Assembly (NCBI RefSeq): GCF_016793485.1
Contig: NZ_JAEULZ010000031.1
Location: forward strand, 61,871-125,870
Source: Mesorhizobium sp.
GTDB taxonomy: Bacteria > Pseudomonadota > Alphaproteobacteria > Rhizobiales > Rhizobiaceae
Length of the DNA: 64,000 nt
Direction of reading: 5' to 3'
The position numbers were made by a program, and so were the translations under genes. This document shows, piece after piece, positions 5,466-19,481 of the stretch (position 1 is its first letter; every line of letters begins with the position of its first letter). The notes beneath the pieces were generated by a model. That model ran no database searches, was not told the origin of the DNA, and saw only the letters and a list, made by a program, of their open reading frames with translations.

Positions 5466-5902
5466 CGTCCGTCCCTTTGTCGGGCGCCAGCTCCCGGCGC
5501 CGCAGTCCTCACTCAACGAGCCATTTTTCTACCACGGCGAAACCAACAACGGCTTGCAGGCTAGATTATCATTCAAGGCAAATTTGATTCAAATTTTAGC
5601 GATTCGAATTTGTGGCAAGTTCGAGGCAATCGCTCTTACCTTGTCGAGCCCGTGGAAAATCTACTAAGTTTTTGTTTATATTGCTATTTTGTGCGTCACA
5701 GGTTCATTTCTGGAAAGATCGATCTGGAAGGTTCTGTTTACCATAGAGCCAATCGCCGGACGGCGTTGGCGCTCCAGGGGCCATATACCGGCAACGGCTT
5801 GCGTCGATGGCCCCACTTTTATTCATTCTTTAAAGCCTCCGATGCGAAGGTCGGTTTCAACTAAAAACGGCTCGCGAAGCGGGCGATTACGGGTACGTTG
5901 CG
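5466..5902. promoter_or_regulatory. Divergent intergenic region with inverted repeat and paired GANTC sites
   Basis: About 435 bases without a credible gene between DUF5330 and the DivJ-like kinase. It is AT-rich around 5575-5700. An imperfect inverted repeat, CAAATTTGATTC (5579-5590) and GATTCGAATTTG (5601-5612), matches in 10 of 12 positions. Each arm includes GATTC, a GANTC site of the CcrM cell-cycle methyltransferase in alphaproteobacteria. Promoters are likely here, but I cannot place start sites. Confidence 0.45.
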
Positions 5903-7687
5903 TTGCGTTTATCTGGGACCAGGACCGGGGATCTGCTTGATGCCGTCGCCGCGTACTGCGAGCGTCTGGTCAAGACGACCGTTCGCGATCAGTCCGAACG
6001 GCAGCGACAGAGACGCTTGATCGGATTGGCGCTTCTCGCGCCTTTCTTAATTGCAGGCCCGGCCGCCAATCTATTGCCATCCATGGTCGGCGTTTCCAAA
6101 ACATTGCTTGTCGTAGCGGCGATTTTCGGGGCTTCGTTCGCCACGGCGGCCGGAGTCATCGCCACTGGCCGTTCGACCCTTGCTCAGGCAATTCTGCTGA
6201 TGTGCGGCGTCCCCGCCGTGGCGGCAATGGTTGCGCTGTCAGGTGGGGCCGCTGCACCCGCAGCATTTGTACTTGTCGCGCTCGTATTTGAAGCGTGGTG
6301 GGTAGGAAGGACACGCAACGCGCTCGCAACTGGCGTAGGAGCCATGTTCGTCGCCATGGGGTTGCAGGTGTTTTTGTCCAGCCGGTTCATGGTCGACATG
6401 CCCAACGTTTCGGCTGCGAACTGGCTCATACCTGTCTGCTACCTTGCTCTGGTCGTGCCGCGCTTCGCTGCTTGGCTTGAAGAGCGGAGACAGGGTGATG
6501 AGGGAGGCGAATCCCTGGAAGATATCATCGAAGCGGTGGTGATACGCCTGGACCGCTCAGGCGAGGTCAGGGACGTTTCACCGCAGGCTCGTCGCATGCT
6601 TGGCCTTGCGCCGGAATTGCTTCTTTCGACGGGCCTCCTGGATCGCCTGCATGTTGCCGACAGGGTCACCTACCTCTGCGCATTGGCGGATCTGAAAGAG
6701 AAGGAAGGCTTCCGCCAAATCGATGTGCGGATGAGGGTTCCGGGATCGGCGGGAAGCTCGATCGCCGACTATCGCTGGTTTGCAATCGAGATGATGCGCC
6801 CGACGACTGCCGGCACCACGATCACCGTCCTGCTGCGACAAGGAGAAGCGCGCGCGGCCAAGCGACTATCTGACGTAGGGGACGCAACCGAAAAGATAGG
6901 CATCGCAAGCAAGCGTGTGCTCGCCGCAGTCAGCCACGAACTGCGAACACCATTGAATTCGATCATTGGCTTCTCCGACATGATGCTTCACGGCATGGTG
7001 GGTCGCTTCGCCGACCCCCGTCAGAGGGAATATGTCAGCCTCGTTCGCGAGTCCGGCAACCATCTGCTTTCCGTGGTGAACTCCATTCTCGACATGTCCA
7101 GAATAGAGGCTGGAGGCTACGTGACCGATCCTGAGCCGTTCCGCTTCGCCCAGGCTGTCGACATGTGCCAGTCCATGCTCGCCCAGCAGGCGCTCGCGAA
7201 GAGGCTTGACCTGACGACCGACGTGGCCGCCGAGATTGGCGAGATCTACGCTGACAAGCGGGCGGTGAAACAGATTCTCATCAACCTGGTTTCGAATGCG
7301 ATCAAGTTCACGCCCGAGGGCGGCAAAGTGTCGATCGGGGCGAAACGCGTCGGTTCGCGCGTGCATTTCTGGGTATCGGATACAGGCATCGGGATCGGCG
7401 CGGGCGACCTTGCGCGGATCGGCGAACCGTTCGTCCAGATCCGCAGCGACCTGACTCGGTATTGCGAAGGCGCAGGGCTTGGGCTTTCCCTCGTCAAAGG
7501 TCTGGTTGCCCTTCACAGTGGCACTATGTCGATCGAGAGCGAGCCGGGGCGGGGGACCCGGGTGACGGTAAGCCTGCCGGTATCCAGACCAAGGCAGGAA
7601 GCGGCTCCTGATCCGGCCGAAATTCATGCCGAGAATGCGAACAGACCTGAAAAGGCTTATGATGGCTCACTCCGCAAGAGCGCCTGA
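5903..7687 (+). CDS. DivJ-like PAS sensor histidine kinase
   Basis: A 594-residue membrane histidine kinase. Residues ~40-190 form about six transmembrane helices, followed by a PAS-like region (~205-315), a HisKA domain with the phosphoacceptor H345 in VSHELRTPLNSIIGFSD, and a HATPase_c domain with N, G1 (DTGIGI) and G2 (GAGLGLS) boxes. A multi-pass N-terminus plus PAS resembles DivJ, which phosphorylates DivK in the CtrA cell-cycle pathway. The HisKA segment (FSDMMLHGMVGRF, then ILDMSRIEAG) is of the DivJ/PleC/PdhS type. The only in-frame start is a TTG at 5903 with no clear ribosome binding site; a nearby stop excludes a longer protein. It overlaps the next gene. Confidence 0.8.
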   Translation: MRLSGTRTGDLLDAVAAYCERLVKTTVRDQSERQRQRRLIGLALLAPFLIAGPAANLLPSMVGVSKTLLVVAAIFGASFATAAGVIATGRSTLAQAILLMCGVPAVAAMVALSGGAAAPAAFVLVALVFEAWWVGRTRNALATGVGAMFVAMGLQVFLSSRFMVDMPNVSAANWLIPVCYLALVVPRFAAWLEERRQGDEGGESLEDIIEAVVIRLDRSGEVRDVSPQARRMLGLAPELLLSTGLLDRLHVADRVTYLCALADLKEKEGFRQIDVRMRVPGSAGSSIADYRWFAIEMMRPTTAGTTITVLLRQGEARAAKRLSDVGDATEKIGIASKRVLAAVSHELRTPLNSIIGFSDMMLHGMVGRFADPRQREYVSLVRESGNHLLSVVNSILDMSRIEAGGYVTDPEPFRFAQAVDMCQSMLAQQALAKRLDLTTDVAAEIGEIYADKRAVKQILINLVSNAIKFTPEGGKVSIGAKRVGSRVHFWVSDTGIGIGAGDLARIGEPFVQIRSDLTRYCEGAGLGLSLVKGLVALHSGTMSIESEPGRGTRVTVSLPVSRPRQEAAPDPAEIHAENANRPEKAYDGSLRKSA

Positions 7688-15454: not shown

Positions 15455-16712
15455 ACTTGGTCCAACCGTTGCGGCCGAATGGATCGGGCATGCGCGTGGA
15501 CAACAATATCCCGCAGGCGGCGCACCAACCTGCTGGCTGGTGACGGGCGGGCGCGGCTCCGGCAAGACACGGCTCGGCGCCGAGTGGGTAAACGGCCTGG
15601 CGCGCGGACTGCCGCCTTTTTCGCCGGATAGGTACACGTATGGGAACATCGCGCTGGTGGGCGAAACGCTCTCCGACGTGCGCGAGGTGATGATCGAGGG
15701 GCCGTCGGGCATCCTTGCCACGGCGCGCGGCGACAGGCCGCGCTATGAACCTTCGCGCAAGCGGCTCGTCTGGCCGGACGGGCGGGTGGCGCACGTGTTC
15801 TCATCGGAGGATCCCGAAAGCCTGCGCGGGCCGCAGTTCGATGCGGCCTGGTGCGATGAGCTGGGCAAATGGAAGAATGCGGAGGCGACGTTCGACATGC
15901 TGCAGTTCGGACTGCGACTTGGGCCGAAGCTGATGCAGATCATCACAACCACCCCGAGGCCGACGCGGCTGATGAAGCGGCTTCTGGCCGATGCGGGCGT
16001 GGAGAAACGAAAACTCGCCACCGCTGATAATGCCGGCAATCTCGCAGCCGGTTTTCTTGAGGCGATGGCGAGGCGCTATGGCGGCACGAAGCTCGGACGG
16101 CAGGAACTGGACGGCGAACTGATCGACGATCGCGAAGACGCACTGTGGTCGCGCGACATGCTGGCGGCGGCTTTTGTGAGTGATGCAGGCGAATTGCGAC
16201 GCATCGTGGTGGCGGTCGATCCACCGGCGAGCTCGCGCAAGACGTCGGATGCCTGCGGCATCGTTGCTGCCGGGTTGGACGCGGAGGGCAGGGCTGTGGT
16301 GCTGGCCGACGCGACCGTCAGGGGAGCGAAGCCGACCGAATGGGCGCGGGTGGCTGTGGGCCTGTTCCATCGGCTGGAGGCCGACGCGATCGTAGCGGAG
16401 GTCAACCAGGGCGGCGACATGGTGACAGCGGTGATCCGTACCGTGGACAAGGATGTACCGGTGAAGGCGGTGCGTGCCAATCGCGGGAAATGGCTGCGTG
16501 CCGAGCCTGTGGCCGCACTCTATGCGCAGGGCCGGGTGAGGCACGCAGGGCGGTTTGCCGAGCTGGAAGACGAGATGTGCGACTTCGGACCCGACGGGCT
16601 TTCGGGCGGCCGCTCGCCGGACCGCGTCGATGCGCTGGTCTGGGCGATCGGCGAGTTGATGCCGGGCGAGGGCGGGGCGCCGAGGATCAGGGATTTCCAA
16701 GGGAGTAGGTGA
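15354..16712 (+). CDS. GTA large terminase / DNA-packaging ATPase (gp2)
   Basis: A 452-residue motor that packages host DNA into the GTA head. The ATPase domain has Walker A at residues 65-72 (GGRGSGKT) and Walker B FDAAWCDE near residue 165. The nuclease half carries VAVDPPAS and later acidic residues (VAEVNQGGD; SPDRVDALVWA), as in RNase H-like terminase nucleases. The start at 15354 (MTNSPKSL) is inside the small terminase gene. The length matches RcGTA-type TerL. The stop codon falls inside one arm of an inverted repeat (16706-16781). Confidence 0.93.
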   Translation: MTNSPKSLHSSTDALSNWLETTQRDWSRENIRRELGPTVAAEWIGHARGQQYPAGGAPTCWLVTGGRGSGKTRLGAEWVNGLARGLPPFSPDRYTYGNIALVGETLSDVREVMIEGPSGILATARGDRPRYEPSRKRLVWPDGRVAHVFSSEDPESLRGPQFDAAWCDELGKWKNAEATFDMLQFGLRLGPKLMQIITTTPRPTRLMKRLLADAGVEKRKLATADNAGNLAAGFLEAMARRYGGTKLGRQELDGELIDDREDALWSRDMLAAAFVSDAGELRRIVVAVDPPASSRKTSDACGIVAAGLDAEGRAVVLADATVRGAKPTEWARVAVGLFHRLEADAIVAEVNQGGDMVTAVIRTVDKDVPVKAVRANRGKWLRAEPVAALYAQGRVRHAGRFAELEDEMCDFGPDGLSGGRSPDRVDALVWAIGELMPGEGGAPRIRDFQGSR

Positions 16713-16781: not shown

Positions 16782-16804
16782 GTCCCTTCAATCAAGGAAC
16801 AAAA

Positions 16805-17968
16805 ATGGCTTGGAACTGGCCCTGGAAGAGGGACGGCGGGACCGTCGTGCCCGAAAGGAAGAGCGGTACGGGCTTCGTCGCGCTGCATGCGGCGGGCGAG
16901 GCGCACTGGACGCGACGCGACTACGCCGCGCTGGCGCGCGAGGGGTTCATGAGGAACCCGGTCGTGCATCGCTCAGTGCGGCTCATCACCGAGGCGGCCG
17001 CGACGGTTCCGTGGCTGCTCTATGAGGCCGGCGAGGAACTCGACGCGCATCCGCTGCTTGACCTCCTGGAGAGGCCTAACCAAAGGCAGGGCGGCGCGAG
17101 TTTCCTGGAGGCGCTCTATGGGCATCTGCTGCTTTCCGGCAACGCCTATATCGAGCGCGTAGAGGCGGGTGAGACGGCGCGAGAACTACACCTGCTGCGA
17201 CCCGACCGGGTGATGGTCGTGACCGATGCGGCGGGTTGGCCGAGCGCGCTGGAGCATCGAGAGGGCAGTGCGAAGCGCAGGATTGCTCTCGGGTCCCCGA
17301 CGGGTGCCGGCTCCGCGCTGCACCTGTCGCTCTTCCATCCGCTCGACGACCACTATGGCTTCGCCCCGCTGGAGGCGGCGCTGATGGCGCTCGACATCCA
17401 CAACGCCGCCGGCCGCTGGAACAAGGCGCTGCTCGACAATTCTGCGCGGCCTTCGGGTGCGCTGGTCTATGCACCAAAGGAAGGCGGCAATCTTTCCGAC
17501 GAGCAGTTTGACCGGCTGAAGGCCGAACTTGAGGACGGCTATTCGGGCGCGGCGCGCGCCGGCAGGCCTCTACTGCTGGAAGGCGGGCTCGATTGGAAGG
17601 CGATGGGCCTGACGCCCAAGGACATGGACTTCATGGAGGCGAAGAACGGTGCGGCGCGCGACATCGCGCTCGCCTTCGGCGTTCCGCCCATGCTGCTCGG
17701 CATTCCCGGCGACAACACCTATGCCAACTACCGGGAAGCAAACCGCGCCTTCTATCGCATGACCGTGCTGCCGCTGGTGGCGCGCACGGCCAAGGAGCTT
17801 TCCGCCTGGCTTTCGCCGGCCTTCGGCGAAGGGTTGCAGCTCTGGTACGACGCCGATCAGATCGAGGGGCTGGCGGCGGATCGGGATGCGCTCTGGGCGC
17901 GGGTTGGCGCTGCGGGGTTCCTCACGGACGACGAGAAGCGTGAGGCGGTCGGGTATGGGGTAAGCTGA
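16805..17968 (+). CDS. GTA portal protein, HK97 family (gp3)
   Basis: A 387-residue portal that forms the DNA gateway at one head vertex. HK97-type features include the N-terminal MAWNWPWKRDGG, EGFMRNPVVHRSVRLITEAAA, the SGNAYIERVE segment and FGVPPMLLGIPGDNTYANY with the following REANRAFYRMTVLPLV. The ATG is 16805, after the inverted repeat. The C-terminus is abrupt (EAVGYGVS) and overlaps by 47 bases the 3' end of the opposite-strand SecY-like gene, so a few C-terminal residues may have been replaced by that insertion. Confidence 0.92.
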   Translation: MAWNWPWKRDGGTVVPERKSGTGFVALHAAGEAHWTRRDYAALAREGFMRNPVVHRSVRLITEAAATVPWLLYEAGEELDAHPLLDLLERPNQRQGGASFLEALYGHLLLSGNAYIERVEAGETARELHLLRPDRVMVVTDAAGWPSALEHREGSAKRRIALGSPTGAGSALHLSLFHPLDDHYGFAPLEAALMALDIHNAAGRWNKALLDNSARPSGALVYAPKEGGNLSDEQFDRLKAELEDGYSGAARAGRPLLLEGGLDWKAMGLTPKDMDFMEAKNGAARDIALAFGVPPMLLGIPGDNTYANYREANRAFYRMTVLPLVARTAKELSAWLSPAFGEGLQLWYDADQIEGLAADRDALWARVGAAGFLTDDEKREAVGYGVS

Positions 17969-19007
17969 CGAACAACACGAGCATGACGGTACCAACCACC
18001 ATCAGCTCGCCACCGCTTGTCATTGGAGGGATTCCGAGGCCGATGGGCAGCAGCCAAGCACCAGCAAACAGAACCGTCTGAACGCCGGAGACCGTCAGCA
18101 GAATAGGAAGCGGCCACCGTTCCGATCCATTGACCTTAGACCATTGAAAACTGCCAGCATAAGCAAAAACGAAGACGGGGATGAGAAGCGTGACGAGGAC
18201 GACGTACGCAGTCTCGATGAAGGACACGGCGACGAACGGCCAGTCCTGCATCTCCGGCAGAAAGTAGGTGATGTGTCCGGCTAGCACGCCGGAAAGATAA
18301 GGCGGCCAGAGCAAGATCGAGGTTTTCGCCACACCGCTGGCAGGCACATTGCAGGACAGGAGTTTGTTGACGAAGACGACAAGGGCCAACCCAGCTACCA
18401 GCGCCAGGACGACAACCAGCAACTGCCTTACCGAGTTTTGGCCGACCTGGCCGACTTCGACTAGATAGGAAATCTTTTCGGGAAAACCGGCAACAACCAT
18501 CAAGGCCATCAACAGCCAGAAACCGCCACCGAGGTCTGGTGACCCGAAATTATCCGCCAACCAGATCATCAAGGCGGTGCTGCCGACAAAGGTAGCCAGG
18601 CCGACGGGTACAAACGCGATTGCGTGGTTCCTGACGATTGTGCTGCTGCTGAGGGCATCGAGTACGCCGAAGCCTTGCCATGCGGCGACCACGAGAGACA
18701 GGGCGAAAACGATGATGGCCAGGCGCCCCGCATTCTGGGTCGAGGCGTTCCGCCACTTGTCCAGACCTGGAATCGCCAGCTTGGCGATCTCCAAATAAGC
18801 CAAGACTGTAAAAAGAGGGATCAGGTCGAGCGCGAAGATTGAGAAAAGGGACGTGATGCTATCCAGCGCAGAATCGGGCCGAGGAATATGGTCGAGGTCG
18901 AGGCCGGGGAGCGGGATATTCCAGCCAACAGCCAATACGACGGACAACGCCGCCACCTGGATCGCATTGCGTCCTTCGGGAATGAGCTGGAAAGCCAAGT
19001 ATCTCAA
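17922..19007 (-). CDS. Divergent shortened SecY-like translocon protein inserted in the GTA cluster
   Basis: A 361-residue polytopic protein with about ten hydrophobic segments. Segments align by eye with SecY in order: VGWNIPLPGLDLDHI (end of TM1), FSIFALDLIPLFTVLAYLE (TM2), IPGLDKW then GRLAIIVF and QGFG (TM3), GSTALMIWLADNF then GGGFWLLMALMVVAGFP (TM4-5), VVLVTLLIPVFVFAYAGSF (TM8), and TSGGELMVVGTVMLVLFVS (TM10). The protein is ~80 residues shorter than ordinary SecY; the large cytosolic loops that bind SecA and ribosomes are reduced. The start is TTG 19007 (or CTG 19019); a stop at 19041-19043 limits extension. It lies antisense between portal and DUF6107. Base composition looks less GC-rich than its neighbours. 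SecY homology is confident; a functional role is unknown. Confidence 0.7.
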   Translation of the reverse strand: MRYLAFQLIPEGRNAIQVAALSVVLAVGWNIPLPGLDLDHIPRPDSALDSITSLFSIFALDLIPLFTVLAYLEIAKLAIPGLDKWRNASTQNAGRLAIIVFALSLVVAAWQGFGVLDALSSSTIVRNHAIAFVPVGLATFVGSTALMIWLADNFGSPDLGGGFWLLMALMVVAGFPEKISYLVEVGQVGQNSVRQLLVVVLALVAGLALVVFVNKLLSCNVPASGVAKTSILLWPPYLSGVLAGHITYFLPEMQDWPFVAVSFIETAYVVLVTLLIPVFVFAYAGSFQWSKVNGSERWPLPILLTVSGVQTVLFAGAWLLPIGLGIPPMTSGGELMVVGTVMLVLFVSLPHTRPPHASRRP

Positions 19008-19136
19008 TCGTTCAACCAGGCTCCTGCCCCCATCGAATATTCAAAACCTGTGTATTTGATGCCCGATCACAAGTGAAGCCTAGTAACCGTTCGGTCGACC
19101 AAATGGACTGGCGGCTTGCGGAAGGAAACCAACAAC

Positions 19137-19481
19137 ATGTCCGAAGTTTCGCAGGACGCCTGGCTGTGGGCGGCCAAAGGGGCTGGTGCGGTCGCGGGGT
19201 CGGCCGTGTCGGTCGCATACATCCTGCCGCAGGGACGGCGCGAGGCGGCGGTGCGGTTTGCGGTCGGCGTAGTGTGCGGGCTGGTCTTCGGTGGCACGGC
19301 CGGGCTGAAGATCGCGGTCGAGCTTGGCGTCGAGAAGCTGATCGGGCCGGTCGAGACCATGCTGATGGGATCGGCTGCTGCGAGCCTGTGCGCCTGGTGG
19401 GCGCTGGGTCCGCTGCTGCGCGGCTTCGAGCGATGGAGCGGCATTTTCCGGAACAGACGGAGGCAGGTGCATGAGGACTGA
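19137..19481 (+). CDS. DUF6107 family GTA-associated membrane protein
   Basis: A 114-residue protein with ATG at 19137 after GAAGGAAA. It has about three hydrophobic segments (WLWAAKGAGAVAGSAVSVAY; FAVGVVCGLVFGGTAGLKIA; LMGSAAASLCAWWALGPLL). This matches the small DUF6107 proteins found between portal and protease genes in rhizobial GTA clusters, a position equivalent to RcGTA g3.5. The function is unknown; a membrane role in assembly or release is possible. It overlaps the protease gene by 11 bases. Confidence 0.75.
   Translation: MSEVSQDAWLWAAKGAGAVAGSAVSVAYILPQGRREAAVRFAVGVVCGLVFGGTAGLKIAVELGVEKLIGPVETMLMGSAAASLCAWWALGPLLRGFERWSGIFRNRRRQVHED

Follow-up and report, generated by a model that had tools for sequence, protein, structure and literature searches.

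An accessory family of SecY-derived membrane proteins with a member lying antisense inside a Mesorhizobium gene transfer agent cluster

Introduction

What is a gene resembling secY doing on the opposite strand of a gene transfer agent (GTA) cluster? The question is raised by a 64,000-nucleotide stretch of Mesorhizobium sp. DNA (contig NZ_JAEULZ010000031.1; the whole stretch is referred to below as the window). An initial annotation had read a minus-strand gene located there, between the GTA portal and DUF6107 genes, as a shortened and divergent SecY homologue, and had considered that it might be an alternative translocon, a GTA-linked lysis or export factor, or simply cargo. Because SecY is an essential and strongly conserved protein, a SecY-derived family that is accessory, locally hypervariable and swappable is unexpected.

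Results

The SecY-like gene occupies positions 17922..19007 of the minus strand and comprises 361 codons, without an internal stop, beginning with TTG. We chose this TTG as the probable start codon because similarity at the protein level among the GTA copies of the gene extends upstream of the first transmembrane segment (TM1); an AGGAG sequence (19025-19021, minus strand) is located 13 nucleotides 5' of it. The surrounding cluster, as identified by matches to Pfam families, reads terminase, portal, insert, DUF6107, protease and capsid, with all of these GTA genes on the plus strand. The portal gene (16799..17968, plus strand, within a listed ORF that begins at 16709; PF04860, 297.1 bits) carries no pretoxin-like tail, and its 3' end overlaps the last 47 bp of the SecY-like gene in antisense. 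The DUF6107 gene (19116..19481, plus strand; PF19602, 112.8 bits) is divergent from the SecY-like gene and forms the right border of the cargo site. The insert between portal and DUF6107 (17969..19115) corresponds to a measured gap of 1151 bp. These coordinates and neighbour matches agree with the antisense insertion originally described. The G+C content of the SecY-like gene is 57.4%, versus 65–68% for the terminase, portal, DUF6107, protease and capsid genes; three other GTA copies of the gene have values of 61–63%. A scan of positions 17800–19300 for promoters and terminators returned none (shuffled sequences averaged 0.5 and 1.8), and PADLOC found no match among six proteins scanned, including the SecY-like protein.

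Profile searches bore out the proposed homology. The predicted protein matched Pfam SecY (PF00344) at 41.3 bits (E 1.6e-10, cut-off 32.2; 42 bits in the genome search), the sole Pfam family recovered at E ≤ 1, and SecY likewise accounted for all 13 distinct PDB sequences recovered under the same limit; an unrelated permease is ruled out by these matches. The single-sequence Pfam match spans profile positions 1–149 of 306, and a profile–profile alignment covers the full core, pairing residues 15–344 of the window protein with residues 27–416 of the canonical SecY from the same genome (E 3.4e-29). The protein scored below the cut-offs of both equivalog models examined, TIGR00967 for housekeeping SecY (38.9 versus 253.6 bits) and NF009082 for SecY2 (30 versus 353 bits). 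The full-length secY for which the initial annotation had suggested a search is present elsewhere in the genome (G000:C12, 393 bits in the genome search), and matching across the whole genome recovered one secE and one secA, both away from the SecY-like gene. Phage records searched with the SecY-like protein gave two weak matches only, both to contigs with an annotated secY. One annotated secY lies at CAKLQH020000003.1:43739-44287, in a record of 240 kb entitled Acinetobacter phage MD-2021a, perhaps bacterial DNA carrying a phage name.

The window protein is a member of a distinct family of SecY-derived membrane proteins, about 350–400 residues in length, that can be aligned over nearly all of SecY and that occurs sporadically in Hyphomicrobiales. 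Scoring five candidates per genome at most, so that each figure is a lower bound, and using E-value limits (1e-42 and 1e-38) set so as to exclude canonical SecY, we found the gene in at least 17 of 394 genomes sampled from the taxonomic family, at least 9 of 397 from the order (six of them outside that family) and at least 1 of 385 from the class (the genome of the window itself). Within individual genera, carriers numbered two of four genomes in the window's genus, 11 of 39 in the genus of G020, and two of five in the genus of G965, where contamination is estimated at 9 and 7 for the two carriers and neither of the two quality-filtered genomes has the gene. The family is accessory: it is found in a minority of species, and at the same locus it can be present, absent or strongly diverged. 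Named carriers at 13 loci belong to Mesorhizobium, Ochrobactrum, Brucella, Tianweitania, Shinella, Rhizobium, Agrobacterium and Labrys, and further copies are located on plasmids recorded for Shinella, Sinorhizobium and Rhizobium; the three annotated plasmid copies, one of them truncated, are all labelled as hypothetical proteins. A full-length secY also occurs on a plasmid, Paraburkholderia fungorum pBIL (L042:7902-9242), with lgt next to it and a heavy-metal P-type ATPase gene close by.

A profile built from nine members, whose training rows match by construction, scored the first set of members at 184 bits or more (the lowest being the truncated copy L041), versus 94–119 bits for canonical SecYs, and scored members found later from 168 bits. 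In a phylogenetic tree the SecY-like family and canonical SecY are split by a branch with 100/100 support; the program warns of long branches in this tree. The survey of related GTA clusters and the phylogeny that the initial annotation had called for placed the insertion in five GTA loci (the window, L033, L087, L088 and L089), in the same place and orientation each time, and their five SecY-like copies form one clade (99/99). The copy at L034 adjoins this clade; GTA genes are absent from its 18-kb locus.

Outside the GTA clusters, 39 family loci, some of them near-copies, contained no match to five GTA genes and neither a pretoxin-like nor an HNH-like motif. From a reading of ORF lists, the copies at L036, L064, L065, L066, L082 and L190 lie amid ordinary genes, and no gene stood out by eye as a partner shared by every lineage. 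Five Ochrobactrum/Brucella loci (L062, L079, L081, L035 and L078) have the SecY-like gene adjoining genes for exported proteins of DUF5086 type, often with DUF2195 type as well (the Pfam scan for these neighbours covered L035); at L062, L079 and L081 a 399-residue exported protein comes next. At L067:6001-7314 the SecY-like copy adjoins an integrase-like gene. That neighbour is a presumptive integrase gene, which suggests that this copy is on a genomic island.

To place the window's insertion among other GTA clusters, we drew on two sets of loci: 28 placed genome loci (from 30 loci taken among 45 genomes with DUF6107) and 45 placed loci out of 48 from IMG/VR (of which L169 and L170 are near-copies), with L089 an additional contig beyond those 48. 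The portal–DUF6107 gap was shorter than 350 bp in 24 of the 28 genome loci, the exceptions being the window, G003, G010 and G006, and was 350 bp or longer in 14 of the 45 IMG/VR loci (L157, with a gap of 9, is not among these). The SecY-like gene was present in two loci of each set, a rarity that rules out an obligate GTA gene. The two copies within the window's genus have identical gaps of 1151 bp. An assembly artefact is ruled out, since Mesorhizobium sp. YM1C-6-2 and three IMG/VR contigs have the insertion as well. An empty site was not found within the window's genus, where the two genomes without the gene (one of them 87% complete) also yielded neither a portal nor a DUF6107 match within the limits applied.

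The site occupied by the GTA copies contains toxin-type modules in some relatives. A QPRVPAGNxDGGQW-like motif, either between portal and DUF6107 or fused to the portal, was found in 10 of the 45 placed IMG/VR loci and 1 of the 28 genome loci (L139, L141, L156, L163, L164, L165, L169, L170, L176 and L180; L112), and several of these loci also carry a CHTCGTKDPG stretch; the labels that we use for these motifs, ‘pretoxin’ and ‘HNH-like’ respectively, are presumptive. The insert of L156 contains a CdiA-CT RNase A domain (PF18431, 58.5 bits) and that of L164 an antisense ORF matching DUF4279 (50.9 bits), while eight other insert proteins gave no Pfam match in the same scan. The G010 insert has an ORF with NWASQPRVPAGNSDGGQW plus small ORFs, none of which matched Pfam. 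At L088/L163, the one SecY-like GTA locus of five with a toxin-like tail nearby, the portal is extended by QPRVPRGTRDGGRW and a short tail, followed by a 123-residue ORF and then by the antisense SecY-like gene; between the small ORFs at L088 and L092 no kinship was detectable (blastp E 0.75). A different antisense ORF, of 249 residues, occupies the same GTA site at L152:753-1502 and matched neither Pfam nor PADLOC. The L164 insert also contains a second copy of the C-terminal end of the portal (L164:2828-3031), a repeat that might reflect the route by which cargo enters this site.

We compared individual residues in an alignment of 25 SecY-like and 26 canonical SecY rows. Near-copies (L039, L043, L044, L074 and L080), incomplete copies (L041, L069/L077 and L078) and genes already represented by other rows (L075, L076, L083, L085 and L086) were excluded, and the L034 row was trimmed at residue 335; the comparison predates the members found later (L190–L193 and L195–L202; L194 and L082 are one and the same protein). 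E. coli SecY residue numbers were mapped by motif. SecY and the SecY-like proteins share the order of their landmarks, including PGxD after TM1 and FAL..P in TM2. A simple hydropathy scan found nine segments in the window protein, none of them over TM7, and eight in canonical SecY.

The loss of cytosolic loops claimed initially is borne out. Over the family rows, the span of the C4 loop between TM6 and TM7 (in the window at 18321..18368, minus strand) is 29 residues versus 44 in canonical SecY, and that of the C5 loop between TM8 and TM9 (in the window at 18105..18146, minus strand) is 27 versus 45. The C5 loop of SecY contains an Arg-Pro-x-Glu motif with a role in SecA function; all 26 canonical rows have it, and the window protein has no residue aligned to Arg357, Pro358 or Glu360. 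The plug-bearing segment between TM1 and TM2 (18837..18899, minus strand) is also shortened, with a family median of 20 residues versus 32; the place of Phe67 is unaligned and that of Gly70 is still Gly in 15 of 25 family rows. The pore isoleucines at 82, 86, 187, 191, 278 and 408 are retained in only 3, 1, 3, 2, 1 and 1 of the 25 rows, respectively. The place of Ile86 is Phe or Leu in 21 rows, that of Ile278 is Phe, Tyr or Leu in 23, and that of Ile408 is Val in 21. In TM5 the motif GFWLLM (18507..18524, minus strand) places Trp at the position of Ser188 (24/25 rows), and in TM7 the signature ILLWPPYLSG (18288..18317, minus strand) has its Trp and first Pro in every row, at the places of Ile275 and Pro276. 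At the nearby place of Ser281, 22 of the 25 rows have Gly, Ser or Ala, and not an aromatic residue. Taken together, the shortened plug and C4/C5 loops, the lost Arg motif and the altered pore argue against transport driven by SecA or ribosomes, and from these residues we infer that the protein would be incapable of ordinary service as such a translocon; its pore is probably closed.

Pairwise dN/dS for the GTA copies was 0.23–0.33 in nine of ten comparisons and 0.52 in the closest pair, so that these five copies are under constraint and not positive selection. Their SecY-like proteins are 57–75% identical, versus 85–87% for the portal and 75–90% for DUF6107 at the same loci (closest pair: 90%, 93% and 97%, respectively). 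Damage was seen in individual copies elsewhere: L041 is truncated, L034 has a frame break near its C-terminus, L078 and L077 are incomplete, and G217 has one in-frame stop.

A swap of the gene is seen at one locus in two Labrys-type genomes. Labrys sp. KNU-23 (L194) and a genome of the same genus (L195) carry it at one shared locus, at which 11 of 12 shared flanking ORFs are 85–98% identical (the twelfth 67%) and the two SecY-like proteins only 35%. In 100-base windows along L194, DNA identity is 93–99% up to position 5899, 38–69% across 5900–7199, 81% in the border window and then 91–98% past 7300. In the genus of G020, p150 and DSP are the neighbours of ten of the 11 copies, and an LMW phosphatase is that of the eleventh; there the SecY-like proteins are 30–73% identical to one another, and the neighbours (with query rows excluded) 72–91% identical to their queries. 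Such hypervariability is not general across lineages. The SecY-like proteins are about as similar to one another as their flanks are in genus g468 (91–93%), in the pairs L035/L079 and L079/L081 (both 90%) and between L038 and L039 of Shinella (93%). A conserved flank was not seen for L192/L193.

Discussion

Three features described here go beyond the initial annotation: the shortened plug, the 47-bp overlap with the portal gene, and the other cargo at the same site in relatives. Of the roles first considered for the gene, cargo is best supported, given that it occurs in just two of the 28 genome loci and two of the 45 IMG/VR loci and that 39 family loci stand without GTA genes. Two CDI toxins have been reported to use SecY as their entry route, and an S281F substitution in TM7 of SecY to protect fully against one of them and partly against the other (available text of PMC7858069). 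The patchy presence of the SecY-like gene, its swapping, its divergence under constraint and the toxin-type GTA site fit a gene engaged in biological conflict. From these traits and the CDI precedent we tentatively favor, at somewhat below even confidence, a reading in which the window gene encodes an exchangeable, non-translocating mimic of SecY with a putative role in resistance or immunity, carried as GTA cargo. Such a protein would reside in the inner membrane, where it might intercept or block a toxin or phage factor that attacks SecYEG or enters through it, either by serving as a decoy or by becoming part of SecE/SecYEG assemblies. A more sweeping version, in which a sealed copy of the universal translocon now serves as a dedicated, polymorphic protein of immunity or resistance, its alleles exchangeable as single-gene cassettes and located both elsewhere and in GTA clusters, some of them armed with portal-fused toxins, strikes us as rather unlikely as a whole.

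Several observations count against a mimic. Only one of the five GTA copies has a toxin-like tail nearby, and the small ORF in between is the likelier immunity gene there. In the 39 non-GTA loci neither the pretoxin-like nor the HNH-like motif was seen, nor any of five GTA genes, several copies lie amid ordinary genes, PADLOC was blank and Pfam returned only SecY. Some lineages are without hypervariability, dN/dS indicates constraint without positive selection, and the place of Ser281 is usually occupied by Gly, Ser or Ala.

Some of the same evidence makes it quite possible, if not our preference, that the family consists of neutral or host-physiological accessory genes with an unrelated role (in a small-molecule or ion pathway, or in envelope stress), for which the GTA junction is simply tolerant of insertion. 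Many copies appear in ORF lists as single genes in ordinary surroundings, with neither pretoxin-like motifs nor GTA genes at the 39 other loci; the single clade of GTA copies requires no more than one insertion followed by descent; and the window gene is lower in G+C than the head genes, though less markedly so in three other GTA copies. Nevertheless, conflict is a better fit for the swap seen at one locus, the 30–73% variation at another and the toxin-rich GTA site.

An alternative translocon or insertase, pairing with housekeeping SecE and handling a special substrate independently of SecA and ribosomes, is improbable. SecY can be aligned nearly end to end, and SecY2 of accessory Sec systems is a precedent for a second SecY (its model scores 30 bits here). 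This role, proposed initially, is weakened by the shortened plug, the missing C5 Arg motif and the replacement of most pore isoleucines by other hydrophobic residues, by the single SecE and SecA of the window's genome, by the exchange of the gene as a cassette, and by the lack of any lineage-wide partner noticed by eye in ORF lists.

We found no support for the GTA-linked lysis or export factor, and a GTA-specific factor of any kind, serving particle release, export or regulation through its antisense overlap with the portal, is very doubtful: its constant place and orientation in five loci would fit, but most placed GTA loci do without the gene and 39 other family loci have no GTA gene nearby. 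A decaying pseudogene of canonical SecY is just as hard to credit, since despite the broken or incomplete copies elsewhere all five GTA copies are open, their dN/dS values speak against decay, and the Trp-Pro motif is invariant in 25 rows.

The family is a candidate for translocon protection; it also offers a natural set of SecY variants without the loops that contact SecA and ribosomes. The cargo site in turn suggests antibacterial toxins in some GTAs, which may thus be armed, and this would bear on why cells retain them. A paper on the Bartonella GTA (PMC3610622) reportedly mentions toxins. Judged by titles and the beginnings of abstracts, we recognized no published description of toxins in GTAs, of a comparable SecY paralogue or of SecY within a GTA, and the SecY-like family is apparently undescribed so far.

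Among known systems, SecY/Sec61-alpha (PF00344, TIGR00967) is alike in segment order, in its PGxD and FAL..P landmarks and in aligning over nearly its full length; it differs from the SecY-like proteins in its longer plug, C4 and C5 segments, its C5 Arg motif and its lack of the Trp residues found here at Ser188 and Ile275. SecY2 of accessory Sec systems, the precedent for a second SecY, is similar in being a second SecY-related protein per genome; the window protein, however, scores far below the SecY2 cut-off, and its genome has only one SecA. The nearest known portal-adjacent toxins are the MuF polymorphic toxins of temperate phages, whose genes lie directly 3' of the portal gene and are mostly followed by small putative immunity ORFs (available text of PMC5576092); the modules seen here differ in being located in GTA clusters, some of them fused to the portal, and no Pfam match to a MuF domain was found in 14 insert proteins or in the extended L088 portal. 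Finally, SecY-dependent CDI illustrates that a change in TM7 of SecY can hamper toxin entry without an apparent export defect, with the difference that the protective change there, as the available text of PMC7858069 presents it, lies in a mutant chromosomal SecY, whereas here a separate SecY-like gene is involved.
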